Shown here in pieces: positions 16,065 through 28,637 of a DNA stretch of 51,098 nucleotides (its first letter is position 1; the number at the start of each line of letters is the position of its first letter). A program made the translations under genes and the position numbers. The notes under the pieces are model-generated. The model made no database searches. It was not told the origin of the DNA and worked only from the letters and a program-made list of their open reading frames with translations. The DNA comes from Elusimicrobiota bacterium (GTDB lineage Bacteria > Elusimicrobiota > Elusimicrobia > Elusimicrobiales > UBA9959), in contig JAJUJA010000001.1 in NCBI GenBank assembly GCA_029267355.1, positions 1 to 51,098 of the forward strand, read 5' to 3'.

Positions 16065-17300
16065 TCAAAGATTTTCCCTGTACGCCTTGAGTGCTTCGGG
16101 GAAGGGTTCAAGCAGTCTTTCCAGAACGCCGAAACAGGCGCCTATAGCCATGCCGTAATTGGTCAGGGGTATTGATATTTTCCGGGCTTTCTCCTGCCTG
16201 TTTTTCATTTCAGCCCCTGTCAGCATACAGCCGCCGCAATTTATCAAAAGTTTGTATTTTTCAAGCTCTTCCGGCATTTTCCTGCCTGAAAAAACGTCTA
16301 TTTCCAGTTTACCGCCGGCTTTTTTCTCAAGCCATTTGGGCAATTTAACTCTGCCTATATCGTCTTCTATCGGATGATGCGAGCAGGCCTCAAGTATTCC
16401 TATCTTATCTGATGGCTTAAGTTTATTCACCAAAGCCGCAGCCGCCGCAAATTCGGCCATTTCGCCCTTGAAGCCGGAGAAAATTATTGAAAAAGTCGTG
16501 CATTTTATATCTTTCGGCGCGCGGCTGACCATAAGGTCTGCGACCTGCGAATCGCAGACAACAAGGTCCGGCTTAACTGAAAGCTTACTTAGAATTTCGG
16601 GCCAATTTTTTTCAGTTATGCATATGGACGATTTATCGGCGTCAAGCAAATCCCTTATGGCCATGACCTGCGGAAGAATTATTCTGCCTTTGGGCGCTTC
16701 CTTGTCTATGGGTATTATAAACACAGCCAGGCCGCCGGCAGGCAAAAGATGAGAAAGTATGCTTTTTTCCTTTTTCCCGCCCTGAATCCGCATTAGGAAG
16801 TCCTTTATTTTATTTACGGTTTCATCTCTTTTTGAGGCGTCGCGGGCATTTGAAAAGATAAACTCACGGCCTTTTTGTAAAAAATCTTTTTCAAACTCCT
16901 TCCTGTTTTCAAGCAAATCCTCTTTATTGAACACTATAAGAGCCGGAATTTTTCTCTCGTCAAATTCCCTTAAAAGCTCCCTTTCATAACCGCCGAAAAT
17001 CCCGGCCTCGCAGACAAGCAGGGCGGCCTCCGTTCTTTCAAAAATTTTTCTGGTATTTTTGACCCTTAAATGGCCAAGCTCGCTTTTATCGTCAATGCCG
17101 GCGGTATCAATAAATACCACAGGCCCCACGGGCAAAAGTTCCATCGTTTTCTCAACGGCATCGGTAGTGGTGCCGGGCACCGGCGAGACCAGAGCCGTTT
17201 CATGGCCGGCTATGAGATTTAAAAGACTGGACTTGCCGACATTGGCACGGCCGAATATGCCTATATGCAGTCTTAAAGATTTAGGCGCCTTCTCTTTCAT
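16065..17300 (-). CDS. hydF: HydF, [FeFe]-hydrogenase H-cluster maturation GTPase
   Basis: 411 residues. HydF is the scaffold on which the binuclear iron subcluster is built before transfer to the hydrogenase. The N-terminal GTPase domain has a P-loop (GRANVGKSS, near residue 17), DTAG and FNKED motifs. The C-terminal part carries the iron-sulfur ligand set C-x-H (CSH) followed, 46 residues after the His, by CGGC (LLINCGGCML), matching the family pattern CxH-x(44-53)-CxxC. The start overlaps the hydE stop by 20 bases and has an AAGGAGG SD inside hydE, so the two are coupled. It is the last gene of the operon and ends at a strong terminator. Confidence 0.97.
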   Translation of the reverse strand: MKEKAPKSLRLHIGIFGRANVGKSSLLNLIAGHETALVSPVPGTTTDAVEKTMELLPVGPVVFIDTAGIDDKSELGHLRVKNTRKIFERTEAALLVCEAGIFGGYERELLREFDERKIPALIVFNKEDLLENRKEFEKDFLQKGREFIFSNARDASKRDETVNKIKDFLMRIQGGKKEKSILSHLLPAGGLAVFIIPIDKEAPKGRIILPQVMAIRDLLDADKSSICITEKNWPEILSKLSVKPDLVVCDSQVADLMVSRAPKDIKCTTFSIIFSGFKGEMAEFAAAAALVNKLKPSDKIGILEACSHHPIEDDIGRVKLPKWLEKKAGGKLEIDVFSGRKMPEELEKYKLLINCGGCMLTGAEMKNRQEKARKISIPLTNYGMAIGACFGVLERLLEPFPEALKAYRENL

Positions 17301-18291
17301 TCTGCCTCCTTAAGGAATGGCCGTAATCTTGCGCCTCTTTTCTCCCCATTTTTTTTATCAATTCTCTGGCGCTTTGAACCGTTTCAAGCGGACTTTGCGA
17401 AAGGGCTATTTTACCGGGATAAAGAAGATAATCGCCGCGGTATTTTTCAGGAGTTATATTTGGCATTATCACATTGGCGCCGGCCCTGAGCGCCATTTCC
17501 CTGCCCTGTTCTGAAAGCGCCTCCATAGCCGAGGCGGCCGGCATATGCGCCTTGGGGCATAGTATTCTTGCCACTGCCAGCACCTTAAGCGCCGCTTTCA
17601 AATTATTTTTATTGCTGCCGGCCAAAGGCGTATCCGGATGCGCTATAAACGGCCCGATGCCTATCATATCCAGCTCAAGCTCCTTGAAAAGCATAATATC
17701 TCTGGCTATGCTTTTTACGCTTTGGCCAGGCAGTCCGACCATTATCCCTGAGCCGACCTGAAAGCCGGCCTCTCTCATCCATCTCAGGCAATCAAAGCGC
17801 CTTATGTAGGAAGAATCCGGTTTATACTTTGAGAAAAGCAGCGGGTCTGAAGTTTCAAATCTCATAAAAAATCTGTCCGCGCCGGCTTCTTTAAGCCGGA
17901 AATAATCAGCTCTCGCCAATTCGCCTGTTGAAAGAGTTACGGCAAGTTTTGTAGCGGATTTTATCTGAGATATGAGATTTTCCATTCTGGAAATATTGAA
18001 ATAGCCGTCTTCGCCCGATTGCAGAACCACGCTTTTAAGCCCCAGCTGCCAGCCCTGAACGCAGCAGGCAAGTATTTCATCTTCCTTAAGCCTGTATCTC
18101 TTTACAAAAGGATTGTCTTTTCTCAAACCGCAGTAAAAGCAGTTTCTTGCGCAGATATTTGAAAATTCAAGAAGCCCCCTCAGATGAATTTCATCGCCCA
18201 AATTTTTCCGCCTTATATCATCGGCCTCGCGGAAAATTTTATCCTCGTCAGGGTCGTTCAGCAGAATTTCTATGATTTCGCTTTTATTCAT
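17281..18291 (-). CDS. hydE: HydE, radical SAM [FeFe]-hydrogenase maturase
   Basis: 336 residues. HydE is a radical SAM enzyme of H-cluster biosynthesis that acts on the HydG-derived iron-cysteine complex. The radical SAM cluster motif is CARNCFYC (Cys47, Cys51, Cys54, CX3CX2C), followed by QSGEDGYF-type and 'MVGLPGQSV' segments usual for the BioB/HydE barrel. I see no second C-terminal CX7CX2C cluster, which is optional in the family. Four bases separate it from the hydG stop upstream, and hydF overlaps its end, fixing the order hydG-hydE-hydF. Confidence 0.97.
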   Translation of the reverse strand: MNKSEIIEILLNDPDEDKIFREADDIRRKNLGDEIHLRGLLEFSNICARNCFYCGLRKDNPFVKRYRLKEDEILACCVQGWQLGLKSVVLQSGEDGYFNISRMENLISQIKSATKLAVTLSTGELARADYFRLKEAGADRFFMRFETSDPLLFSKYKPDSSYIRRFDCLRWMREAGFQVGSGIMVGLPGQSVKSIARDIMLFKELELDMIGIGPFIAHPDTPLAGSNKNNLKAALKVLAVARILCPKAHMPAASAMEALSEQGREMALRAGANVIMPNITPEKYRGDYLLYPGKIALSQSPLETVQSARELIKKMGRKEAQDYGHSLRRQNEREGA

Positions 18292-18295
18292 AAGA

Positions 18296-19726
18296 TCAAA
18301 AACAAAGGTCCCTTTCGCCTTTCTTTATCCTCTCATAATAAACGCAAAGGGTCTTTTTTGTCTCCGCTCCGAACCTCTCATCCTGCGCCATTACTTCTTT
18401 TATCTCTTTTTCTATAAGTTTTTCGCCCCTGGCCTTGGTTTGCGGCGAAGCGAAATCGTCCAGCCATTCCCTGAATGTCAGTATGGCGTTCAATTTACAG
18501 AAACGCGCTTCATGTCCGCTTTTAAGCAGTTTCATTATATGGTCGCCTGTTCTGCCGCAGCGGTAGCCGGAAGTGCAGAAGGAGGTGATATAGCCCATTT
18601 CAGCAAGCTCTCCTATAACTTCATCAAGAGTTCTTGTGTCGCCAAGCTCAAATTGCTGTTTTTCAAGCTCCTGCTTTTCATAGGAATGCGAATAGGCGCC
18701 TATGCCTATTCTGGTTGAGGCGTCGCGCTGAGTGCAGAACGGTATGACGCTTCTTATCACTTCAGGCCTTTCCCTGGCGGTGACGATAAGCCCGGCATAG
18801 GGCACAGATAATCTGATCAAAGCGGCTATTTTTTTGAAATCTTCACCGCTTATTTCATTTTCTTTTAATTTTGAGCCGCAGGCTTTTTCCAGTCTCGGAA
18901 ATGAGACGGTATGAGGCCCGACTTTGAAAGTTTTTTCAAGCTCTCTAGCATGCGAAAGAAGGCCCAGAACCTCAAAACGCCAGTCGCCGAGGCCAAACAG
19001 CGCGCCCAAAGCGACATCGTCTATACCGGCCTCAAAAGCCCTGTGATGGCAATAAAGCCGCCATAAAAAATCGCTTTTAGGCGTACTAGCGGGATGCAAT
19101 TTCCGATAAAGCTCTTCATCGTAGGTTTCCTGAAAAACCTGATAAGTGCCCAGGCCTGCCGCCTTTATTTTTTTAAGGTCTTCAACGCTCATAGGCGCGG
19201 CATTCACATTCACGCGCCTTATCTGGCCGTAACCCATTCTGGTTTTGACCCTTACCGAATAAATCGTCTTCAAGGCTTCGGCTATATAATCCGCGCCGGT
19301 TGAGGGATGTTCGCCCACGACAAAGATCAGCCTTTTATGGCCTATTTCGCCGCAGAGAACCTCAGTCTCTTTTTTTATCTCCTCCATTGAAAGCTTGCGC
19401 CTGACGGCCTTGCTGTTGCCGGTCCTGAATCCGCAGTAAAGGCAGTTATTGACGCAAAAATTTGAAGCGTAAAAAGGCGCAAAAGTGACCACTCTGTTGT
19501 CATAGATCTTCTTTTTAAGCGCGGCTGCCGCCGAAAAAATTTCCTCCCATATCTGCGGGTCTTTGACCCTCATAAGCGCGGCCGTCTCGGCGGGCTCAAG
19601 GGCGCAGGATGCCTCCAGAGATTTTTTTATTATATCCCTTACCTGCGCCGCGGACGGCTCATCATTTAGTTTTAAAAGGGAAATTATCTCCTGCCTGTTT
19701 ATAAAATTTTTGATTTCTGTCTTCAT
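18296..19726 (-). CDS. hydG: HydG, radical SAM tyrosine lyase (H-cluster CO/CN synthesis)
   Basis: 476 residues. HydG splits tyrosine to make the CO and CN ligands of the H-cluster. The radical SAM motif is CVNNCLYC (Cys91, Cys95, Cys98), flanked by FAPFYASNF and GFRTGN as in the family. The C-terminal auxiliary-cluster region reads CTSGYRCGRTG and ends in RFCKLN: Cys384 and Cys410 match the first and last cysteines of the usual CX2CX22C motif, but the second position is Gly387, with a cysteine three residues on (Cys390). Either the ligand has shifted or this belongs to a HydG variant. The gene starts 14 bases after the receiver-kinase gene stops, within the hydrogenase operon. Confidence 0.93.
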   Translation of the reverse strand: MKTEIKNFINRQEIISLLKLNDEPSAAQVRDIIKKSLEASCALEPAETAALMRVKDPQIWEEIFSAAAALKKKIYDNRVVTFAPFYASNFCVNNCLYCGFRTGNSKAVRRKLSMEEIKKETEVLCGEIGHKRLIFVVGEHPSTGADYIAEALKTIYSVRVKTRMGYGQIRRVNVNAAPMSVEDLKKIKAAGLGTYQVFQETYDEELYRKLHPASTPKSDFLWRLYCHHRAFEAGIDDVALGALFGLGDWRFEVLGLLSHARELEKTFKVGPHTVSFPRLEKACGSKLKENEISGEDFKKIAALIRLSVPYAGLIVTARERPEVIRSVIPFCTQRDASTRIGIGAYSHSYEKQELEKQQFELGDTRTLDEVIGELAEMGYITSFCTSGYRCGRTGDHIMKLLKSGHEARFCKLNAILTFREWLDDFASPQTKARGEKLIEKEIKEVMAQDERFGAETKKTLCVYYERIKKGERDLCF

Positions 19727-19740
19727 AAGCCCTCCGGCCC

Positions 19741-20901
19741 TCAGGCCGCAGACGCGTTTTGAACAGCCGCTGCCTGCTCCTTGAGCGTGACTATGAAAAT
19801 GCTGCCCTTGCCATATTCCGACGAGACTTTTATTTCGCCGCCGTAAAGAGAGGCAAGTTTTTTCAGTATTGAAAGCCCAAGCCCGCTGCCTTCTATGTTC
19901 CTTGTATGCTCGTTTTTTATCCTTACAAATTCGCCGAAAAGCCTTTTCTGGTCTTCGCGGCTTATGCCTATGCCGGTGTCGCTGCAGGAGATTTCCATAA
20001 AATCTCCTTTTTTCTCTATTTTAAGTTTTATTTCGCCGCCTTCCCTGTTGTACTTTACGGCATTGCTCAAAAGATTTGAAAACAATGTTTCCATTTCCCC
20101 CCTGTCAGCGCCGAAGGCGAACTTTTCAGGGTATAAAAGCTCAAATTTTATTTTTCTCTCCTGCGCCTTCAAAGCCAGCCCTTCATAAACATACAAAGCC
20201 GTCTCGCCCGGATCAATTTTTTCAATAAGCCGCTTCTTTTTGCCCGATTCAAGCCGCGTCAAATCCAGAATATCGTTTATCAGTTTCCGCATTGAGGCTA
20301 TTCTGTCAACTGATCTCTTTATCATTGAGTCATAGCTTGCAAGTTCATCGCCCTTGACTCTTTCGTCTATAAGATGCAGATATCCTTCTATGGCGGCCAG
20401 CGGCGATTTAAGCTCATGGGCGAGCACGGACACAAATTCAAACCTTATTCTGCTTTTCTCTTCCTGAAGCTGCCTTACTTTGCGCGACATAAAAATGTTT
20501 TTCGCCGCTTTTTTGACGGCCTCTCTCAATTCATCAGGTGAAAAAGGCTTGGCGAGGAAGTCAAAGGCGCCCTTTCTGGTGGCTGTAATGGCCACATCCA
20601 GCGAGGCGAAAGCGGTTATTACTATAGTGAGAAATCCGGAAGAATCGCAGTTTTGCAGCACTTCCAGCCCGTTCATATCAGGCAATTTATAGTCAAGAAG
20701 AACTATGTCAGGCGAGTTTTCACTTATCTCTTTAAGAGCGGCCTGTCCCGTTTCAGCCATGTAAATGTCAAAAGTTATCTTTTCGGGAAAATCGGTTTCC
20801 TTGAAAGAAAGATTTCTCAGGCATCTGGCCGCGCCTTCTCTCATTCCCGGCTCATCATCAACTATGAGCAGTTTAAGCCTGAGACTTTCGCCGTTTTCCA
20901 T
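19741..20901 (-). CDS. Hybrid receiver-histidine kinase
   Basis: 386 residues: an N-terminal receiver domain (residues about 10-130, LLIVDDEPG acidic pocket, DIVLLDYKLP phosphoacceptor Asp, FLAKPF Lys), a linker helix, then a HisKA dimerisation domain with H-box SVLAHELKSPL, and a HATPase domain (N-box LFSNLLSNAVKYN, G1 DTGIGIS, G2 GSGLGLSI). There is no membrane segment, so it is cytoplasmic. A receiver in front of the kinase core means its activity is probably set by phosphotransfer from another kinase, plausibly the sensory hydrogenase-kinase two genes upstream. Two bases separate it from the receiver gene upstream. The next gene is hydG. Its output partner is not certain. Confidence 0.92.
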   Translation of the reverse strand: MENGESLRLKLLIVDDEPGMREGAARCLRNLSFKETDFPEKITFDIYMAETGQAALKEISENSPDIVLLDYKLPDMNGLEVLQNCDSSGFLTIVITAFASLDVAITATRKGAFDFLAKPFSPDELREAVKKAAKNIFMSRKVRQLQEEKSRIRFEFVSVLAHELKSPLAAIEGYLHLIDERVKGDELASYDSMIKRSVDRIASMRKLINDILDLTRLESGKKKRLIEKIDPGETALYVYEGLALKAQERKIKFELLYPEKFAFGADRGEMETLFSNLLSNAVKYNREGGEIKLKIEKKGDFMEISCSDTGIGISREDQKRLFGEFVRIKNEHTRNIEGSGLGLSILKKLASLYGGEIKVSSEYGKGSIFIVTLKEQAAAVQNASAA

Positions 20902-20903
20902 AT

Positions 20904-21296
20904 TTATCTCCCTAAAAGCTTTTTCAATTCCTTTTCCAGCTGTTCAAAGCGGAGCTCCTTCTGTATTACCGCATCCGCCTTTATCCAGTTATTCTTGTCA
21001 TGCTCCTTGTCAAAATAAAAGCCGGTCTCTTTCGTGACAGAGGTCACTATTATGACCGGTTTTTTCGGGAAGGCCTTTTTTATCCTATGGCTTAAAACAA
21101 AGCCGGAATCCGGATTTTCCATCATCAAATCCAGGACCGCGGCGTCAAACTCTTTTTCCGAAATGATTTTTTCAGCGTCCTTCTGTGTATAGGCTTTCAC
21201 AACTTCATAACCCCTGCCGCCAAGATAAATATCAAGCTGATCCATAAGGTCAGCGTCATCTTCCGCTATAAGAACTTTTATTTTTTTCTCGCTCAT
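20904..21296 (-). CDS. Single-domain response regulator
   Basis: 130 residues, a receiver domain only: acidic pair in KVLIAEDDADLMD, phosphoacceptor Asp in DAAVLDLMME, Thr/Ser in IIVTSVTKE, Lys in VIQKELRF. No DNA-binding or enzymatic output domain is attached. The insert FYFDKEHDKNNWIKAD before the Lys is longer than in CheY. It overlaps the sensory hydrogenase-kinase gene upstream by four bases and lies two bases before the receiver-kinase gene, so it is a likely phosphotransfer intermediate between the two kinases. Confidence 0.92.
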   Translation of the reverse strand: MSEKKIKVLIAEDDADLMDQLDIYLGGRGYEVVKAYTQKDAEKIISEKEFDAAVLDLMMENPDSGFVLSHRIKKAFPKKPVIIVTSVTKETGFYFDKEHDKNNWIKADAVIQKELRFEQLEKELKKLLGR

Positions 21297-23338
21297 ATTT
21301 TCTCCTTTGAAGCGCCGGCATTTTTTATCAGCTCGGCATTCTCTTTGATTTTCTCCCTTTCAAGAGGCAGTTTCACCGTAAATTTCGTCCCTGTTTCGCC
21401 TTTGGACCTGTCGGCATTGCTTTCAACCATTATTGCCCCGCCATGCGCCTTTATTATCCCGTAGGTTACCGCCAATCCCAATCCTGTTCCTTTGCCTATC
21501 TGTTTTGTGGTAAAGAAAGGCTCAAATATTTTTTTCAGGTTTTCCTCTTTTATGCCGCAGCCGTTGTCTGAAACAGTGAAAAAGGCAAATTTCCCCTGAG
21601 AAAAAACCTCAACCTTTATTAAGCCGCCGTTCGGCATGGCCTCAAAGGCATTAGTAATCAGATTTGATATGACCTGCGTTATCTGATCCTGGTCTATCTC
21701 CGCAAAAACCTCGCCTTCCCTTGAGAACTCTATATTTATGTTTTTTGACGGCTTGAAAACCTTGAAATAATTTTCAAACAGAAGCCCGAGATCTGTTTTC
21801 TTGAACACAGGCTTGTTCTTTCTGGCAAAATTGAGAAGGCCGGCCACGATTTTCTTGCATCTTTCCGCCTGCTCGGTTATCGTATTGAGATCTCTTCTGA
21901 GAGGATTTTCAGGCTCCGTTTCCTCGGCGGCCAGTTTTGAATACAAAAGAACGACGCCGAGAGGATTATTCAGCTCATGGGCTATGCCGGCAGCCAGCTG
22001 CCCCATACTGGCCAGCTTTTCAGATTGAAGCAGGGCCTGCTTGGCGCTTGTAAGCTGATTATAGGACTCTCTCAATTCCTGCGCCGTCATTTTCAATCTG
22101 TCTATGGCATAAGGCAGGCACATTTCGCTTTCGGCCAGCCCCTTGATTATGGCGGCGGCATGTTCGCGGCAGGAAGGATAACCGCAGGCGCCGCAATTCA
22201 ATTCATCCTGCTGATTTATTTTCCCCATTTTCTCAAGAACTTTTTTTATTTCGCTTTCAGCCGGCGCGTCCTTTTCAGCCGTCTCCGTCTTGAAAAAAGC
22301 GGAATAGTCCATATCCCTGAATCTTGTCACATAATCTTCCCATTCCCCTATCTTCATATTGAAGTATTTGCTTCTGGCATAGGCCCTTAAAATCTCTTCT
22401 CTGGCATAGCGGGATTTACCGCTTTTTATGCCCGGTCCCATAATACAGCCGTCGCAGCATAAAAGATCAAGAAAATCCGCCTTTATATCGCCTTTTTCAA
22501 AATTTTTCAAGGCCTCCGTAAATTCATCCAGTCCCTCAGCCGACATAAATCTGCCGCTGAGCAGATCCTCTTCAAATTCAGAAGCGCTCAAAAGGCCGCG
22601 GCCCATGGGATAAAGCACGCCTTTGGCCGGATAAGGCGGATCAAAGAAAGAATCCACCGAGTTTCTGTCTGAAACATCCATCGCCTCAAGTATGCTCCTG
22701 AGTTCAGCGAAAGTTATTACGCAGCTTATGTCCTTTGCGTATTTTTCTGCTTCTCTTTTTTTGGAAACGCAGGGCCCGGCGAATACTATTTCAGTTTCCC
22801 CGCCGTAAATGCTTTTCATTATTCTGGCCGTGGCCACCATAGGCGAAACTATAGGCGCTATATTGCCCACAAGCGACGGATGATATTTTTCTATGTATGA
22901 AACCACGGCCGGGCAGGCGGAGCTTATATATTTTTTGCCCGGATTTTCATTTATCAGTTTTCTGTATTGAAGCGAAACTATATCGGCGCCAAATGACACT
23001 TCATTTACAAATGAAAAGCCGGCTTTTCTCAGCATACCGGCCAGCCGCAGCGGGTCGGTATCGCAGAACTCAACCGGAAAGCTCGGGGCAAGGCATATAG
23101 CCGCCTTTCTTCTGCCTTTGAGCATCTCTATCACGGCAGCGCTGGAATCCTTTATCTTTTTAGCCTGACGGCTGCACATTAAGGTGCAGTTTGCGCAGCT
23201 TATGCATCGCTCTTCTATTATTTCCGCCTGGCCCTGGCAAATTCTTATGGCTTTTGCCGGACAGCCCCTGACGCAGGTATAGCATGTCCTGCACAGCTCT
23301 TTTACAGTATATACCAGCGGATCTTCTTTCATATTCAC
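21293..23338 (-). CDS. Sensory [FeFe]-hydrogenase (HydS-like) fused to a histidine kinase
   Basis: 681 residues. Domains in order: two [4Fe-4S] ferredoxin motifs (residues about 16-56); an [FeFe]-hydrogenase large-subunit-like domain (about 75-325); a CX2CX4C...C iron-sulfur motif (Cys382, 385, 390, 407); a coiled linker; HisKA with H-box His454 ([12 protein letters not shown]); and a HATPase (N-box [24 protein letters not shown]). H-cluster cysteines seem kept: Cys142 in SSACP, Cys190 in AGPC, Cys294 and Cys298 in CCDGC. The proton-transfer cysteine of TSCCP is Ala141, and the small [FeFe] subunit C-terminus is absent. This fits the group C sensory hydrogenases rather than a catalytic enzyme. 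It overlaps hydA by four bases. I infer that it senses H2 or redox state and feeds the adjacent receivers. Confidence 0.9.
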
Positions 23339-25053
23339 CTGTCCTTTGTCGCTCTTGCCTTATACGATGTATGCAGAAGGTGATGACTTTTTTCTCCAAG
23401 CGGCTTGCCGAGAAAGTCCTTATAAAGCGTCTTTAAAGCTTTATTCGCGTGAGATACTCTAATCTTCTCAGCCGAGTCTATTTCATAAAGCGCTCTGGCC
23501 CTTTCAGAAACCGCTTTTTTATTTTGCGAAAAGGGCTGGCCGCCGCCGTTCACGCAGCCGCCGGGGCAGGCCATAACTTCGACGAAATCGGCTTCTTCAA
23601 GGCCTTTTTCAAGCGAGTCAAGAAAATCTTTCGCATTGCCGAGTCCGCTTAAAACAGCCAGTTTTATCTCTTTTCCGCCTATGACTGCTTTCGCTTTTTT
23701 CACGCCTTTAAGGCCCCTGACCTGCTCAAACTTCAGTTCTGCCAGTTCCTTGCCGGTCAAAAGATAATGCGCGGTCCTTACCGCGGCCTCCATAACGCCG
23801 CCTGAAGCGCCGAATATTTTGCCTGCGCCGCTTCTTTCCCCGAAAGGTAAATCCGCCTGAGAGGGTTTTATGTTTTTGAAATCAATGCCGAATATATTTA
23901 TAAGTCTGGCCAGCTCTCTTGTTGTCAGAGATAAATCCACATCCTCAAAATCGCCGCCTTTCATTTCCGGCCTTTTTATCTCAAATTTCTTGGCAGTGCA
24001 GGGCATTATTGAAACCACGGCTATATCTTTGGGGTCTATGCCCTCTTTTTTGGCGTAATAGGATTTTATCACAGCCCCAAGCATTTGATGCGGGCTTTTA
24101 CAGGTTGAAAGATTGTCTATCATTCCCGGATAAAAGGTTTCAAGATATTTGACCCAGCCCGGACAGCAGGAAGTGAACATAGGCGGTTTACCCTTATTCT
24201 TTATCCTTTCGGCAAGCTCTGAAGCCTCTTCCATTATGGTCAAATCAGCGGCGAAAGAGGTGTCAAATACGGCCTTAAAGCCCATTTCTCTCAAAGCCGA
24301 AACCATAAGTCCGTCCACATCCTTGCCCAAAGGCAGGCCGAACTCTTCGCCGAGAGAAACCGATACCGCCGGCGCATGCTGAGCGACAACATATTTTCCG
24401 CTTTCAAGGGCTCTTTTTACTGCTTCAATTGAGTTGTTCTCCATCAAAGCGCCTGTGGGACAGACTGTAACGCATTGACCGCAATTAACGCAGGAGGACA
24501 CATTCAAAGCCGAATCAAAGGCGCAGGAAATTCTGCTTTTGAAGCCTCTCATTGAAAAATCTATGCAGCCGACCTTCTGAACCTCTTCGCAAACTCTGAC
24601 GCATTTGCCGCAAAGTATGCATTTTTCCGGATCCCTGACTATGGAAGGGCCGGAAACGTCCATATTGATATCTCTTGAGATAGTCGGAAAACGCCTTTTG
24701 GTAACGCCGTATTTTCTGGCCAAAGCCAGCAATTCGCATTTATCCTGTTTGTCGCAGTAAAGGCAGTCGTCAGGATGAGAACCCATCAAAAGCTCTATGA
24801 CGGTCTTTCTGGCGTTTATCACTCTCGGACTGTGAGTTTTAACCTTAAGCCCGGCCGTAACGGGAAGCGAGCAGCTTGTCATAAGGTTAGCCTGCCCCTC
24901 AACCTCAACCACGCAAACTCTGCAGGCGCCGGACGGGGCCATGCCTTCAAGATAGCATAAGGTGGGTATATCAAAACCTTCTCTTTTCAAAACGCTTAAA
25001 AGCATTTCTCCTTCAAGCGCTTCTATATCCTTGCCGTTTACATTTATTTTCAT
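23335..25053 (-). CDS. hydA: HydA, catalytic subunit of trimeric [FeFe] hydrogenase
   Basis: 572 residues. An N-terminal [2Fe-2S] domain (residues 1-75, CRVC motif), a His-Cys [4Fe-4S] segment (HPDDCLYC, about 93-106), and two ferredoxin [4Fe-4S] clusters (CILCGKCVRVC, about 145-155; CVNCGQCVTVC, about 188-198) precede the H-cluster domain. The three H-cluster signatures are complete: TSCCPGW (294-300), MPCTAKK (350-356) and MACPGGCVNGGGQ (from 493). It should therefore make or oxidise H2. With HydB and HydC it forms the NAD(P)-linked, often electron-bifurcating, hydrogenase of anaerobes; bifurcation cannot be read from sequence. Nine bases separate it from hydB. Confidence 0.97.
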   Translation of the reverse strand: MKINVNGKDIEALEGEMLLSVLKREGFDIPTLCYLEGMAPSGACRVCVVEVEGQANLMTSCSLPVTAGLKVKTHSPRVINARKTVIELLMGSHPDDCLYCDKQDKCELLALARKYGVTKRRFPTISRDINMDVSGPSIVRDPEKCILCGKCVRVCEEVQKVGCIDFSMRGFKSRISCAFDSALNVSSCVNCGQCVTVCPTGALMENNSIEAVKRALESGKYVVAQHAPAVSVSLGEEFGLPLGKDVDGLMVSALREMGFKAVFDTSFAADLTIMEEASELAERIKNKGKPPMFTSCCPGWVKYLETFYPGMIDNLSTCKSPHQMLGAVIKSYYAKKEGIDPKDIAVVSIMPCTAKKFEIKRPEMKGGDFEDVDLSLTTRELARLINIFGIDFKNIKPSQADLPFGERSGAGKIFGASGGVMEAAVRTAHYLLTGKELAELKFEQVRGLKGVKKAKAVIGGKEIKLAVLSGLGNAKDFLDSLEKGLEEADFVEVMACPGGCVNGGGQPFSQNKKAVSERARALYEIDSAEKIRVSHANKALKTLYKDFLGKPLGEKSHHLLHTSYKARATKDR

Positions 25054-25062
25054 AGTTTCACC

Positions 25063-27015
25063 TCAGGAGACTTTAACAGCCGAGAACTTGCAGACAGTTT
25101 TGCAATTTCCGCAGGAGATGCATTTCTCCGCTATTATGTAATGCGGAGCTTTGGGCGCTCCTTTTATGGCCTGCGTCGGACATTGTTTCGCGCATAAAGT
25201 GCAGCCCTTGCATTTATCGGCCAGTATTGAGTACTCAAGCATATCGGCGCAGGCGCCGGCCGGACATTTCCTGTCAAAAATATGCGACTCATATTCGTCT
25301 CTGAACCATCTTAAAGTGGAAAGCACCGGATTCGGCGCTGTTTGACCAAGCCCGCAAAGACTGGTTTCTTTTATAACTTTGGCCAGATCTTCCAGCTCAA
25401 TAATGCCCTCAAAACGCCTTAAGGCGTCCTGCGTTTTCTCATTTTTTCTGCTTCTGGTTATGGCCTCAAGCATATGAAGCATTCTTTTTGTGCCCTCTCT
25501 GCACGGTATACATTTGCCGCAGGACTCATTTTGAATGAAGTTCATAAAGTATTTGGCCACATCTACCATACAGGTGCTTTCATCCATTACCACAAGGCCG
25601 CCGGACCCCATCATGGCGCCGGCGCCTTTGAGCGATTCATAGTCAACCTGTATGTCTATGCCGCTTTCAGGTATGCAGCCGCCTGAAGGGCCGCCTATTT
25701 GAACGGCTTTGAACTTTCTGTCCTTTTCTATGCCGCCGCCTATATCAAAAATTATTTCCTTAAGCGTGGTTCCCATAGGTATTTCCACAAGACCGGTTCT
25801 TTTTACGGTGCCGGAGAGGGCAAATACTTTTGTGCCCTTGGAATTCGCCGTTCCCATTGAAGAAAAATACTCATATCCGCGGCTTATTATCTCTGCCACA
25901 TTGGCAAAGGTTTCCACATTATTTATCACAGTCGGTTTTCCGAAAAGGCCTCTGGCGGCAGGATAGGGCGGCCTGGGCCTCGGCATGCCTCTTTTTCCTT
26001 CTATGCTGTGTATTAAAGCCGTTTCCTCTCCGCAGACAAAGGCGCCTGCGCCCATCTTTATTTTTATGTCAAAATCAAAACCGCTGTCATAGATATTTTC
26101 GCCGAGAAGGCCTTTGGCTCTGGCATCGGCCAGCGCTTTTTTGAGGTTTTTTACGGCCAGCGGATACTCGGCCCTTATATAGACATAAGCCTTATTGGCG
26201 CCTATGGCATAGCCGGCTATGCACATGCCTTCTATGACCCTGTGCGGATCGCCTTCTATAACCGCCCTGTCCATAAAAGCGCCGGGGTCGCCTTCGTCGG
26301 CATTGCAGATAAGATATTTTTCATGCGAGTCGGCTGCTTTGGCAAGCTTCCATTTTTTTCCTGTCGGGAAACCGCCGCCGCCGCGGCCCCTGAGCCCGCT
26401 TTTTTCCACACAATCGCAAACCTCATCCGGAGTCATTCTGGTTATCGCCTTTATAAAGGAAAGATAGCCGCCTCTGGCCGCATATTCTTCTATGGAAAGC
26501 GGATCCACTATGCCGCAGTTTTTCAAAACTATCCTTTTCTGCCTTGAAAAGAAAGGGTGCTCGTTTATAAAAGGCACGCCTTCCCAGGCGAGAGGGCCTT
26601 CAAATTGTCCCAGAAGATTTTCCTTCAGAGGACTGCCTGCAAATACGGATTCGGCTATTTTTTCGGCATTGTCTTCAAGAACTTTTGAAAAGCTTATCCT
26701 GTTTTTGCCGGGCATCGCAAAATCCACAAGCGGCTCGCCTGAACAGAAACCTATACAGCCGACTTCAACTATTTCTGCGTCTATATTTTTGGCTTTCAGA
26801 ACGCTTTCTATTTTTTTTCTTGTTTTAGCCGCGCCTGCCGCCAGTCCGCAGGTGCCTGCCCCTATATAAATGACGGGTTTTGAAATCTTTTCTCTTCTTA
26901 AAACAGGCGCCGTCTCGTCTTCAGGGCTGCCGCCGAAAAAAGCCGAAGAAAATCTTTCCGCCGCTGCTGCCGGCAAGGCCGAGAGCTGTTTTTTAAGTTC
27001 CTGCTGTATGTTCAT
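25063..27015 (-). CDS. hydB: HydB, NuoF-like flavin subunit of the hydrogenase
   Basis: 650 residues. An N-terminal thioredoxin-like [2Fe-2S] domain (about 45-115, with GTCGLAAG and EVGCIGFCSGEP cysteines) leads into the NuoF core with its FMN/NADH-binding GLRGRGGGGFPTGKKW and GAFVCGEETALI motifs, and a [4Fe-4S] site (ESCGKCIPCREGT). The C-terminus carries two further [4Fe-4S] motifs (CKGCTLCAKQCP and CISCGNCKTVC), as in HydB of trimeric bifurcating hydrogenases. It binds NAD(H) through FMN and passes electrons to HydA. It overlaps hydC by four bases. Confidence 0.96.
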   Translation of the reverse strand: MNIQQELKKQLSALPAAAAERFSSAFFGGSPEDETAPVLRREKISKPVIYIGAGTCGLAAGAAKTRKKIESVLKAKNIDAEIVEVGCIGFCSGEPLVDFAMPGKNRISFSKVLEDNAEKIAESVFAGSPLKENLLGQFEGPLAWEGVPFINEHPFFSRQKRIVLKNCGIVDPLSIEEYAARGGYLSFIKAITRMTPDEVCDCVEKSGLRGRGGGGFPTGKKWKLAKAADSHEKYLICNADEGDPGAFMDRAVIEGDPHRVIEGMCIAGYAIGANKAYVYIRAEYPLAVKNLKKALADARAKGLLGENIYDSGFDFDIKIKMGAGAFVCGEETALIHSIEGKRGMPRPRPPYPAARGLFGKPTVINNVETFANVAEIISRGYEYFSSMGTANSKGTKVFALSGTVKRTGLVEIPMGTTLKEIIFDIGGGIEKDRKFKAVQIGGPSGGCIPESGIDIQVDYESLKGAGAMMGSGGLVVMDESTCMVDVAKYFMNFIQNESCGKCIPCREGTKRMLHMLEAITRSRKNEKTQDALRRFEGIIELEDLAKVIKETSLCGLGQTAPNPVLSTLRWFRDEYESHIFDRKCPAGACADMLEYSILADKCKGCTLCAKQCPTQAIKGAPKAPHYIIAEKCISCGNCKTVCKFSAVKVS

Positions 27016-27479
27016 ACTTTTTTCTCCCTGGCTTTTATGTCCTCTATTATTTTCCTGAATTTTTCTGCCGTTACCTGAGCATAGAATTCGCCGTTTACAC
27101 TTATCACAGGCGCCAGGCCGCAGGCGCCCATACAGGCGACGGTTTCAAGACTGAAAAGGCCGTCCCTGGTAGTTTTTCCAGCCTTTATGCCCAGTATATC
27201 TTCGGCAGTTTTCAGGGCTGAAGCCGACCCTTTCACATGGCAGGCAGTGCCGCGGCATACCATTATGTGATACTTGCCCAGGGGCTCAAAGCGGAATTGA
27301 TTGTAGAAGGTAGCCACGCCGTAAATCTTGCTGGCCGCAATCCCAAGATGCCTTGAGACTTCAAGCACCGACTCGCCGGAAATATAACCTTCGGCTTCCT
27401 GTATTTCCTGCAAAAGGCCGATAAGAGCGTCTCTCTTTCTGTTTTTGTTCTTTTCAAGTATTTCCTTAACTTTGCTCAT
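27012..27479 (-). CDS. hydC: HydC, NuoE-like [2Fe-2S] subunit of the hydrogenase
   Basis: About 155 residues from the ATG at 27479. I chose this start because GGAGAT lies just before it; an upstream TTG (27509) would sit inside rex. The protein has the thioredoxin-like [2Fe-2S] fold of NuoE, with cysteines in VCRGTACHVKGS and in CMGACGLAPV. A helical N-terminal bundle (IGLLQEIQEAEGYI) precedes it. It is the small electron-carrying partner of HydB. It begins 13 bases after the rex stop and overlaps hydB by four bases, so all three subunits are produced together under the same promoter. Confidence 0.95.
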   Translation of the reverse strand: MSKVKEILEKNKNRKRDALIGLLQEIQEAEGYISGESVLEVSRHLGIAASKIYGVATFYNQFRFEPLGKYHIMVCRGTACHVKGSASALKTAEDILGIKAGKTTRDGLFSLETVACMGACGLAPVISVNGEFYAQVTAEKFRKIIEDIKAREKKV

Positions 27480-27492
27480 ATAATCTCCGGTT

Positions 27493-28113
27493 TCATATTC
27501 TTTGCGCAAAGTAAGCCGTTTTTTCTATGGACAGGGTTATGTCTATTTGATCCACGAAAACATCATTCGGCACGCGTATAGCCTGCGGCGCAAAATTTAC
27601 TATTCCCTTTATGCCCGCTCTGACCAGCATATCGGCCGTTTCCTGGGCAGCCTCAGCCGGAACCGTAATTATGCCCACGCTTATGTTTTCCTTTTTCACG
27701 ACCTCAGGCAGGTCGGAGATATGATACACCTTGCAGCCGCAAAAGATCCTGTCCGTTTTTTGCGTATCCGAATCAAAGGCGGCCGCTATCTCAAGGTTCG
27801 GTCTTCTTTTGAGGAAATAGAACAATATGGCCTTGCCTAGATTGCCCACACCTACAAGAGCCAGCTTCGTCTTCATATTGCATTTAACATGGCTGCACAC
27901 CTGAGAGAAAAAGTCTTTTACCGGATACCCCTTTTGAGGCGTGCCTTCTATGTCAAACTCCATAAGGTCGCGCCTTACCTGCACAGCCGAAACTCCGACC
28001 TTCTGAGCAAGCTCATGCGAAAAGACGAAATGCTCGCCGTTAGCCATTTTTTCCTTGACCACCTCAAGATACTTAAGCAGCCTTTCTACAAGTTTTTCAG
28101 GAACTCTTTTCAT
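27493..28113 (-). CDS. rex: Rex, redox-sensing transcriptional repressor
   Basis: About 206 residues from the ATG at 28113; a TTG at 28131 would overlap the upstream gene. The N-terminal winged helix (RVPEKLVERLLKYLEVV, then VSAVQVRRDLMEFD) is followed by a Rossmann NAD(H)-binding domain with GVGNLGKA and a C-terminal swapped helix. Rex binds DNA at low NADH/NAD+ ratio and lets go when NADH is high, so fermentation and hydrogenase genes are derepressed under reducing conditions. Its wing reads IEGTPQKGYPV instead of the usual 'G-x-x-G-x-G-Y' pattern, and the operators seen upstream also depart from the standard Rex site. The position as second gene of the hyd operon points to autoregulation. 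Confidence 0.95.
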   Translation of the reverse strand: MKRVPEKLVERLLKYLEVVKEKMANGEHFVFSHELAQKVGVSAVQVRRDLMEFDIEGTPQKGYPVKDFFSQVCSHVKCNMKTKLALVGVGNLGKAILFYFLKRRPNLEIAAAFDSDTQKTDRIFCGCKVYHISDLPEVVKKENISVGIITVPAEAAQETADMLVRAGIKGIVNFAPQAIRVPNDVFVDQIDITLSIEKTAYFAQRI

Positions 28114-28114
28114 A

Positions 28115-28528
28115 TTACTTCTTGCCTTCAATATTTATCTCTTCCTTTTCAAGTGAAAGCATTTCATCCACCTTTTTAAGGAAGTCTTTGGGCTTTATGG
28201 GCTTTTCTATAAAAGCGTCAACAGGCAGAAATTCTCCATCCTTTTCGCCGAACTTCTGCGGGAAATGCTGATTTACCGAAGTGAGCATCATAACCGGAGT
28301 ATATTTGACGCTTTCGTCTTTCCTTATTTCATAAACGGCATTGAAGCCGTCGGTGAAATCATCCATCATAACATCCATTATCACAAGGGCCGGTTTTACC
28401 TCTTTCACCTTTTTTACCCCGTCTTTGCCGTTAGAGGCCGTAAAAACTTCATGTCCGCGGCCGGTCAAAATAACCTCGCAGGTCTCCAGTATATCCTTAT
28501 CATCGTCTACGCATACTATCCTTGCCAT
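28115..28528 (-). CDS. Single-domain response regulator, first gene of the hyd operon
   Basis: 138 residues, a receiver domain only: acidic residues in IVCVDDDKDI, phosphoacceptor in ALVIMDVMMDD, Thr/Ser in VMMLTSVN, Lys in FIEKPIKP. The ATG at 28528 is preferred over a GTG two codons upstream because the SD GGAGG is then correctly spaced. No output domain is attached. It is separated from rex by one base, which makes it a candidate to deliver the sensory hydrogenase signal to another protein, but no DNA-binding partner other than Rex is encoded in the operon. The leader from the predicted transcription start is about 74 bases. Confidence 0.92.
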   Translation of the reverse strand: MARIVCVDDDKDILETCEVILTGRGHEVFTASNGKDGVKKVKEVKPALVIMDVMMDDFTDGFNAVYEIRKDESVKYTPVMMLTSVNQHFPQKFGEKDGEFLPVDAFIEKPIKPKDFLKKVDEMLSLEKEEINIEGKK

Positions 28529-28577
28529 AACCACCTCCGTTATTTGCTTAACTTACAAGCTTTTTATTTCCTTTGTT

Positions 28578-28597
28578 ATCGTTACTTTTGTAACGAT
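28578..28597. promoter_or_regulatory. Palindromic operator, Rex-site-like
   Basis: ATCGTTACTTTTGTAACGAT is a perfect 8-4-8 inverted repeat. Its TCGTTAC-N4-GTAACGA core has the 7-4-7 geometry of Rex sites (TTGTTAA-N4-TTAACAA type) with changes at two positions per arm. It lies just downstream of the predicted transcription start of the hyd operon (about +5 to +24), a position suited to repression. Confidence 0.6.
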
Positions 28598-28608
28598 GCT
28601 ACAAACTT

Positions 28609-28637
28609 AATATAGCACATCGTTACTTTTTTGTCAA
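28609..28637 (-). promoter_or_regulatory. Sigma-70 promoter of the hyd operon with second operator half-site
   Basis: On the minus strand: TTGACA (28632-28637), a 17-base spacer, then TATATT (28609-28614); transcription is expected near 28602. The spacer contains another ATCGTTAC arm (28619-28626 on the plus strand), 41 bases from the first, about four helical turns. The -35 is consensus, so without repression this promoter should be strong. Confidence 0.75.

Follow-up and report, generated by a model that had tools for sequence, protein, structure and literature searches.

The window analyzed here is a 51,098-nucleotide stretch of Elusimicrobiota bacterium contig JAJUJA010000001.1. It contains an apparent 11-gene operon, running on the minus strand from 28534 down to 16065, in the order RR0, Rex, HydC, HydB, HydA, HydS-HK, RR1, RRHK, HydG, HydE, HydF. 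The first gene encodes RR0, a single-domain response regulator by Pfam (28115–28534), and the second encodes Rex (27493–28131; NF003995, 195.8 bits against a cut-off of 126), the only DNA-binding regulator of the operon. Profile matches identify HydC as NuoE-like (27012–27509) and HydB as NuoF-like (25063–27015), and HydA (23335–25053; NF040763, 812 bits, cut-off 765) is a group A6 [FeFe]-hydrogenase with an intact TSCCP motif. The three maturases HydG (18296–19726; TIGR03955, 434 bits), HydE (17281–18291; TIGR03956, 330 bits), and HydF (16065–17300; TIGR03918, 481 bits) close the operon. RR0, at 81% identity, is the operon protein most conserved relative to the locus designated L003. The subject of this study, HydS-HK, is a kinase-fused group C-type [FeFe]-hydrogenase, assigned from its open reading frame, Pfam matches, and homologues. 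The frame is uninterrupted, encodes 681 residues from a GTG start, and occupies 21293–23338, the exact span given in the initial annotation, on the minus strand; its start shares 4 nucleotides (GTGA) with the hydA stop, and its stop shares another 4 (ATGA) with the start of RR1.

Upstream of RR0 there is a predicted σ70-type promoter, TTGACA-N17-TATATT (28609–28637, minus strand), with the same layout in 9 Elusimicrobia relatives, and 11 nucleotides past its −10 element lies the palindrome ATCGTTACaaaaGTAACGAT (28578–28597), a proposed Rex-type operator. The palindrome (ATCGTTACN4GTAACGAT) recurs at the corresponding position in nine Elusimicrobia loci, and its core, CGTTAN6TAACG, has a single match in the 1.93-Mb genome, with 0.04 expected in the window, but it deviates from the sequence TTGTGAAN4TTCACAA. 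Loci of other phyla in which rex comes first have canonical-looking Rex sites (TTTGTGAAttatTTCACAAA in L026 and two in L021), with GTGAA/TTCAC sites upstream of rex in these two loci and shorter ones in L020 and L015, and a Rex site precedes the rex-hyd operon of Caldithrix abyssi (PMC5317091). Because of these sites, it is likely that Rex also binds the Elusimicrobial variant. Control of the operon by σ54 was considered and dropped, a −24/−12 site being absent at the window promoter. In L003, L004, L010, and other Elusimicrobia loci, further copies of TAACGATG/AACGATG are present in the −35/−10 spacer and downstream of the palindrome, which suggests more than one regulator site.

Domain layout, relatives, and the linker to the kinase

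HydS-HK begins with an N-terminal 2x[4Fe-4S] ferredoxin-like domain recognized by cysteine conservation (residues 11–60; 23159–23308), whose eight cysteines (C16, C19, C22, and C26; C45, C48, C51, and C55) are invariant in the 58 of 58 members that cover the region. The H-domain follows (PF02906, Fe_hyd_lg_C; residues 79–302; 22433–23104; 140.8 bits, cut-off 22.1), and then a C-terminal [4Fe-4S] domain (PF04060, with cysteine conservation; residues 380–409; 22112–22201), in which C382, C385, C390, and C407 are each present in 59 of 59 proteins. The kinase portion consists of HisKA/DHp (HisKA residues 445–508; 21815–22006), with the phospho-acceptor His454 in the sequence HELNNPLG, and HATPase_c (residues 549–660; 21359–21694); all of these features are on the minus strand. 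The H-box and the N, G1, F, and G2 boxes are intact, as are the kinase boxes in 43 of 43 aligned kinase-fused homologues, and residues H454, N559, N563, D591, G593, G595, G617, G619, and G621 are invariant in the alignment, which bears out the earlier proposal of a complete HisKA/HATPase in one chain with a sensory H-domain. The additional iron-sulfur motif noted in that proposal is also present, but it is the standard C-terminal cluster of groups C and D, Cx2Cx4Cx16C (PMC8163306). All four domains occur in the 43 aligned homologues, and Pfam detects no PAS domain in HydS-HK or in any of the 43. A fold search with the HydS-HK model gave [FeFe]-hydrogenases as the best PDB matches together with the histidine kinases ZraS and CckA.

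A scan of genome contigs yielded 27 loci with near-full-length homologues (one incomplete) at 46–70% identity, in records titled Elusimicrobia, Fermentibacteraceae, Planctomycetes/Phycisphaerae, Myxococcota, Bacteroidales, Ignavibacteria, Acidobacteriota, Neomarinimicrobiota, and Hydrogenedentota, and further homologues were taken from 248 genomes of the source phylum and 345 genomes of the phylum to which the Bacteroidales record belongs. Since full-length homologues, 39–86% identical, extend across about nine phyla by record titles, HydS-HK is not a product of chance; about 100 alignment columns are strictly conserved across many phyla. Within the source family, HydS-HK is present in 18 sampled genomes with a sensor part that is 62–100% identical.

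In a tree of the H-domain region (91 rows; IQ-TREE, LG+C20+F+G4, PMSF), in which Ruminococcus albus HydS is the named representative of group C and from which long-branch rows, including group D-like ones, were left out and TamHydS was absent, groups A (100/100), B (100/95), and C (100/99) are separate. The H-domain of HydS-HK lies within group C alongside R. albus HydS and outside groups A and B; the initial annotation had named grouping with catalytic hydrogenases as grounds for refutation, and its reading withstands this test. One clade (100/99), placed among PAS-type proteins, unites the kinase-fused proteins and L222, and this nesting points to an origin of the kinase fusion inside PAS-type group C; a PAS domain is carried by most of the comparison group C proteins. 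A first quick tree, in which the long-branch rows L203 and L224 split the kinase-fused set, was rebuilt without long branches to give the single clade. L203 is a 1349-residue frame from a Bacteroidota genome, with a group C/D-like H-domain and weak kinase similarity. L222 (L222:517-2388, the same gene as L019:2378-4249) is an additional HydS encoded next to the operon in a Bacteroidales genome; neither a kinase nor a PAS domain was found in it, and its C-terminal ∼190 residues have no domain assignment.

The connection between the last iron-sulfur cysteine and the phospho-acceptor histidine (C407 to H454) is 46 residues long in 40 proteins and 39 in the other 19, the Bacteroidota set, with no other length among the 59, and the two lengths differ by exactly one heptad. 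A coiled-coil transmitter predicts a linker quantized in heptads. It should be recognized that, with only one change of length observed, agreement with the heptad has by itself about a one-in-seven probability of arising by chance, so that the absence of any other length is the stronger evidence. In the AlphaFold2 model (mean pLDDT 85, pTM 0.64) a putative signaling helix, residues 408–443 (22010–22117, minus strand), begins beside C407 and leads from the iron-sulfur domain to the DHp helix at 445–473. Because model confidence falls below 50 at residues 439–445, helix continuity through this joint is presumed.

The H-cluster site

Residue numbers were mapped by alignment to CpI, and 59 non-identical kinase-fused proteins were compared. 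The CpI ligands C300, C355, C499, and C503 correspond to C142, C190, C295, and C298 of HydS-HK, each conserved in 59 of 59. In the L1 motif, Ala141-Cys142 (CpI C299-C300; 22913–22918, minus strand), residue 141 is Ala, Thr, Pro, Ser, or Asp in the clade and never Cys. The L2 motif, G188-P-C190-V-S-K193 (CpI M353-K358; 22760–22777, minus strand), has G188, P189, C190, and K193 in every protein, so that the CpI M353 position is always Gly. The initial annotation had drawn attention to Ala141 at the position of the proton-transfer cysteine and to altered motif neighbors such as Gly188; both residues are present, but neither is unusual, since among sensory enzymes Ala accounts for ∼43% at the first position, where it is the commonest state, and Gly for ∼51% at the second (PMC10055695). 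The Cys-to-Ala change was for this reason dropped as a novelty.

The L3 motif, L293-C294-C295-D-G-C298 (22445–22462, minus strand), is less conventional. Its CpI counterpart, C499-HGG-C503, is one residue longer, and CpI G501 is deleted in all 59 kinase-fused proteins, which have CxGC, not CxxGC. Position 294 is variable (33 Cys, 19 Phe, 4 Ala, and 3 Ser), whereas C295 and C298 are invariant. From the G501 gap, the invariance of C295, and the variability of C294, the clade is assigned a CxxC L3, and by alignment its conserved third ligand is C295, not C294. Of the ligands first proposed (142, 190, 294, and 298), three are thus retained and C294 gives way to C295. As a ligand throughout the clade, C294 is ruled out by conservation; in HydS-HK itself, which reads CCDGC, it is physically possible as an alternative. 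The same sequence fits both spacings, so that an L3 length taken from a regular expression is misleading, and the spacing is decided by the alignment together with the 26 members that have no Cys at 294. CxxxC is kept in the sampled members of group A (16/16), group B (12/12), and non-kinase group C (26/27), where the one exception is L222, which falls inside the kinase clade; a single change suffices to account for the short L3 on the H-domain tree. The shortened motif is a natural variant for asking what the minimum residues of an H-cluster site may be.

The pocket residues A84, P85, S165, P166, and K193 (CpI A230, P231, S323, P324, and K358) are essentially invariant among the 59 relatives. 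In contrast, the positions of the catalytic proton path, as defined for CpI (PMC6226526), have been replaced: C299 mainly by Ala, Thr, Pro, or Ser, E279 by Tyr (57/59), E282 mostly by Leu, and S319 by Ala (55/59). Because the pocket is kept and the path is lost, the conservation pattern indicates selection for the cofactor site and not for turnover.

These features also bear on the possibility that HydS-HK is a redox sensor kinase, linked to ferredoxin or NADH, in which the short L3 holds a [4Fe-4S] cluster only, with no [2Fe], and the iron-sulfur chain reports electron pressure, not H2. The CxxC motif itself would favor this explanation, as would the invariance of the twelve other iron-sulfur cysteines and the presence of Leu in 57 of 59 proteins at the position of CpI M497, where the change to Leu impaired [2Fe] integration in CpI (PMC10055695). 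However, the equivalents of the CpI residues that contact the [2Fe] ligands (K358, P231, and A230) are invariant or nearly so, which is hard to explain without the subcluster, and TmHydS, in which Ser replaces M497, gives typical spectra after artificial maturation (PMC10055695). On this evidence a redox sensor devoid of [2Fe] is unlikely, although it has to be taken seriously.

Comparison with related known systems

The fusion of a sensory H-domain to a kinase, which the initial annotation took to be unusual, has a precedent in BfuT of the sub-type V BfuABC clusters, described in 2024 as group C3 proteins with a His_kinase domain in Hydrogenedentota and Caldithrix (PMC11406978). BfuT (C. abyssi WP_006928132.1) likewise combines a sensory H-domain with a histidine kinase beside an electron-bifurcating HydABC, and HydS-HK has the sub-type V layout, H-domain-HisKA-HATPase, downstream of the hydA of a bifurcating HydABC; as at the present locus, Rex is encoded in the C. 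abyssi operon (PMC5317091). The passages on BfuT that were consulted do not mention the shortened L3, a fixed linker length, or RR1/RRHK (PMC11406978), the C. abyssi protein being compared by its description only; a Hydrogenedentota member (L048/L176) has all three in common with HydS-HK. From that account, in which kinase-fused proteins are assigned to C3, and from the clustering with R. albus HydS, HydS-HK probably belongs to HydDB group C3. Already on record are group C enzymes of putative sensory function with their altered motifs, the C-terminal cluster, and kinase-fused C3 proteins (PMC11406978). As far as checked, the new elements are the L3 shortening gained once, the 46/39 linker, the RR1/RRHK neighborhood, and the σ70 promoter with a Rex-like operator. 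A search of the open-licence literature did not find the clade-wide L3 shortening, the quantized linker, or the RR1/RRHK triad, and the L3 shortening and fixed linker length common to the 59 relatives are apparently unreported.

PAS-type (M2f) HydS proteins, represented by those of R. albus 7 (WP_013483411.1) and Thermotoga maritima (TmHydS), share with HydS-HK the N-terminal 2x[4Fe-4S] domain, an H-domain without the catalytic proton path, and the C-terminal Cx2Cx4Cx16C cluster. TmHydS likewise replaces C299 by Ala (A131) and M353 by Gly (G177) and differs from CpI at E279, E282, and S319 (PMC10055695). However, PAS-type HydS ends in PAS and acts on separate partners, whereas HydS-HK has its own kinase, and, having no C-terminal PAS, it and the 43 aligned kinase-fused members fall outside M2f. 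The R. albus protein, whose gene lies alongside one for a SpoIIE phosphatase, is 35% identical to HydS-HK in the sensor part. The regulatory [NiFe]-hydrogenase HoxBC and its kinase HoxJ are separate polypeptides, and the enzyme is unrelated to [FeFe]-hydrogenase. This group 2b system resembles HydS-HK in coupling H2 sensing to a histidine kinase (PMC5037454). TamHydS (group D/M2e) has the same order of iron-sulfur domain, H-domain, and iron-sulfur domain and also lacks PAS, but it has no fused kinase, a kinase-like gene being separate (PMC8163306). A kinase output has also been proposed for HydDB group C1, "histidine kinase-linked (putative)" (PMC5037454); for C1 of Cloacimonadota, the kinase is encoded by a gene of its own (PMC8542988).

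Partner genes and proposed signaling

Downstream of HydS-HK are RR1 (20904–21296, minus strand; open reading frame and Pfam), a single-domain response regulator that retains the acidic pair and the phospho-Asp, Thr/Ser, and Lys positions, and RRHK (19741–20901, minus strand), a receiver-HisKA-HATPase hybrid by Pfam. Pfam detects no DNA-binding domain in either, and no DNA-binding output adjoins the kinase within the window. The order HydS-HK/receiver/RRHK is found in 32 of 41 loci and RR1 lies ahead of HydS-HK in three more, while RRHK adjoins HydS-HK in 39 of the 41. Because RRHK remains in four loci where RR1 is not adjacent (L025, L028, L244, and L245), it is, judged by gene neighborhood, the more constant partner.

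We favor, with some reserve, the view that HydS-HK is a single-chain H2-responsive sensor kinase serving the bifurcating hydrogenase encoded beside it. H2, or the redox balance set by H2, would alter the state of an H-cluster, presumably loaded with [2Fe], held by C142, C190, C295, and C298, and the change would travel through the iron-sulfur sites to the C-terminal [4Fe-4S] domain, where C407, its last cysteine, starts the helix that would lead into those of DHp. The kinase/phosphatase balance at His454 may then shift without any PAS domain, and phosphate would pass to the receiver of RRHK and/or to RR1, the candidate partners in a phosphorelay that would adjust how the electron-bifurcating HydABC, transcribed with them, is used or expressed. 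Rex, encoded in the operon itself, probably acts as a separate transcriptional gate responsive to NADH/NAD+. This proposal is founded on the intact ligands and pocket, the intact kinase boxes, the two linker lengths, the AlphaFold2 helix, the group C placement, and the conserved triad. Against it are the L3 that is one residue short, Leu at the M497 position, the want of a DNA-binding output beside the kinase, and the finding that disruption of the C-terminal cluster of TamHydS hardly altered catalysis, in which the authors see a challenge to earlier signaling hypotheses (PMC13104023). A more specific version, which we offer tentatively and regard as rather doubtful, is that the reshaped site, with its CxxC L3, Leu at M497, and no proton path, does not turn over H2 and works as a redox/H2 switch, with a heptad-spaced helix from the iron-sulfur cluster into the kinase and a phosphorelay without DNA-binding output; if true, this would be metallocluster-to-coiled-coil signaling, a mode so far undescribed for hydrogenases.

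It is also conceivable, but improbable, that the kinase in reality acts on a DNA-binding response regulator of the σ54 NtrC type encoded elsewhere, that RR1 and RRHK are side branches, and that HydS-HK is part of a conventional two-component system activating hydrogenase genes. The closest relatives of its kinase domain are the NtrB-like kinases AtoS and ZraS, the source genome has 48 receiver domains, and at a Planctomycete locus (L022:7004-8536) a kinase-fused HydS without RR1/RRHK has a divergent NtrC-type σ54 regulator as its neighbor, with hydABC nearby. Nevertheless, the constancy of RRHK beside HydS-HK argues against a mere side branch, and the operon promoter is of the σ70 type with a Rex-like operator, not −24/−12. 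The L022 locus offers a natural setting in which the output of the kinase might be found. That HydS-HK is a catalytic hydrogenase bearing a kinase for another purpose is very improbable: its H-cluster ligands are intact and HydEFG lie within the operon, but the clade has lost the proton path in its entirety, its phylogenetic position is outside groups A and B, and the preceding gene on the minus strand encodes a HydA dedicated to catalysis, which has TSCCP. A functionless pseudo-sensor in decay, to which the altered active-site motifs might point, is hardly credible in view of the strictly conserved columns, the fixed linker, and the conserved gene triad.

Group C [FeFe]-hydrogenases have been termed H2 sensors mostly because they have PAS domains and are weakly active, direct physiological evidence being scarce (PMC8924675), and a measured H2 response or phosphotransfer for any kinase-fused member was not found in the open-licence literature. 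With sensor and kinase in one polypeptide, H2-dependent autophosphorylation should be directly measurable, which makes HydS-HK a good protein for testing whether group C enzymes really sense hydrogen; the conserved operon, present in many anaerobic phyla, ties this sensor to electron-bifurcating hydrogenases. Some Bacteroidota loci (L234–L236, L239, L241, L246, and L247) have, after the triad, a second receiver, a second hydCBA with a HydA of ∼638 residues, and another kinase. In L235, RRHK contains an additional PAS domain, and the RRHK proteins of L234, L236, L239, L241, L246, and L247 are similar to it in length.
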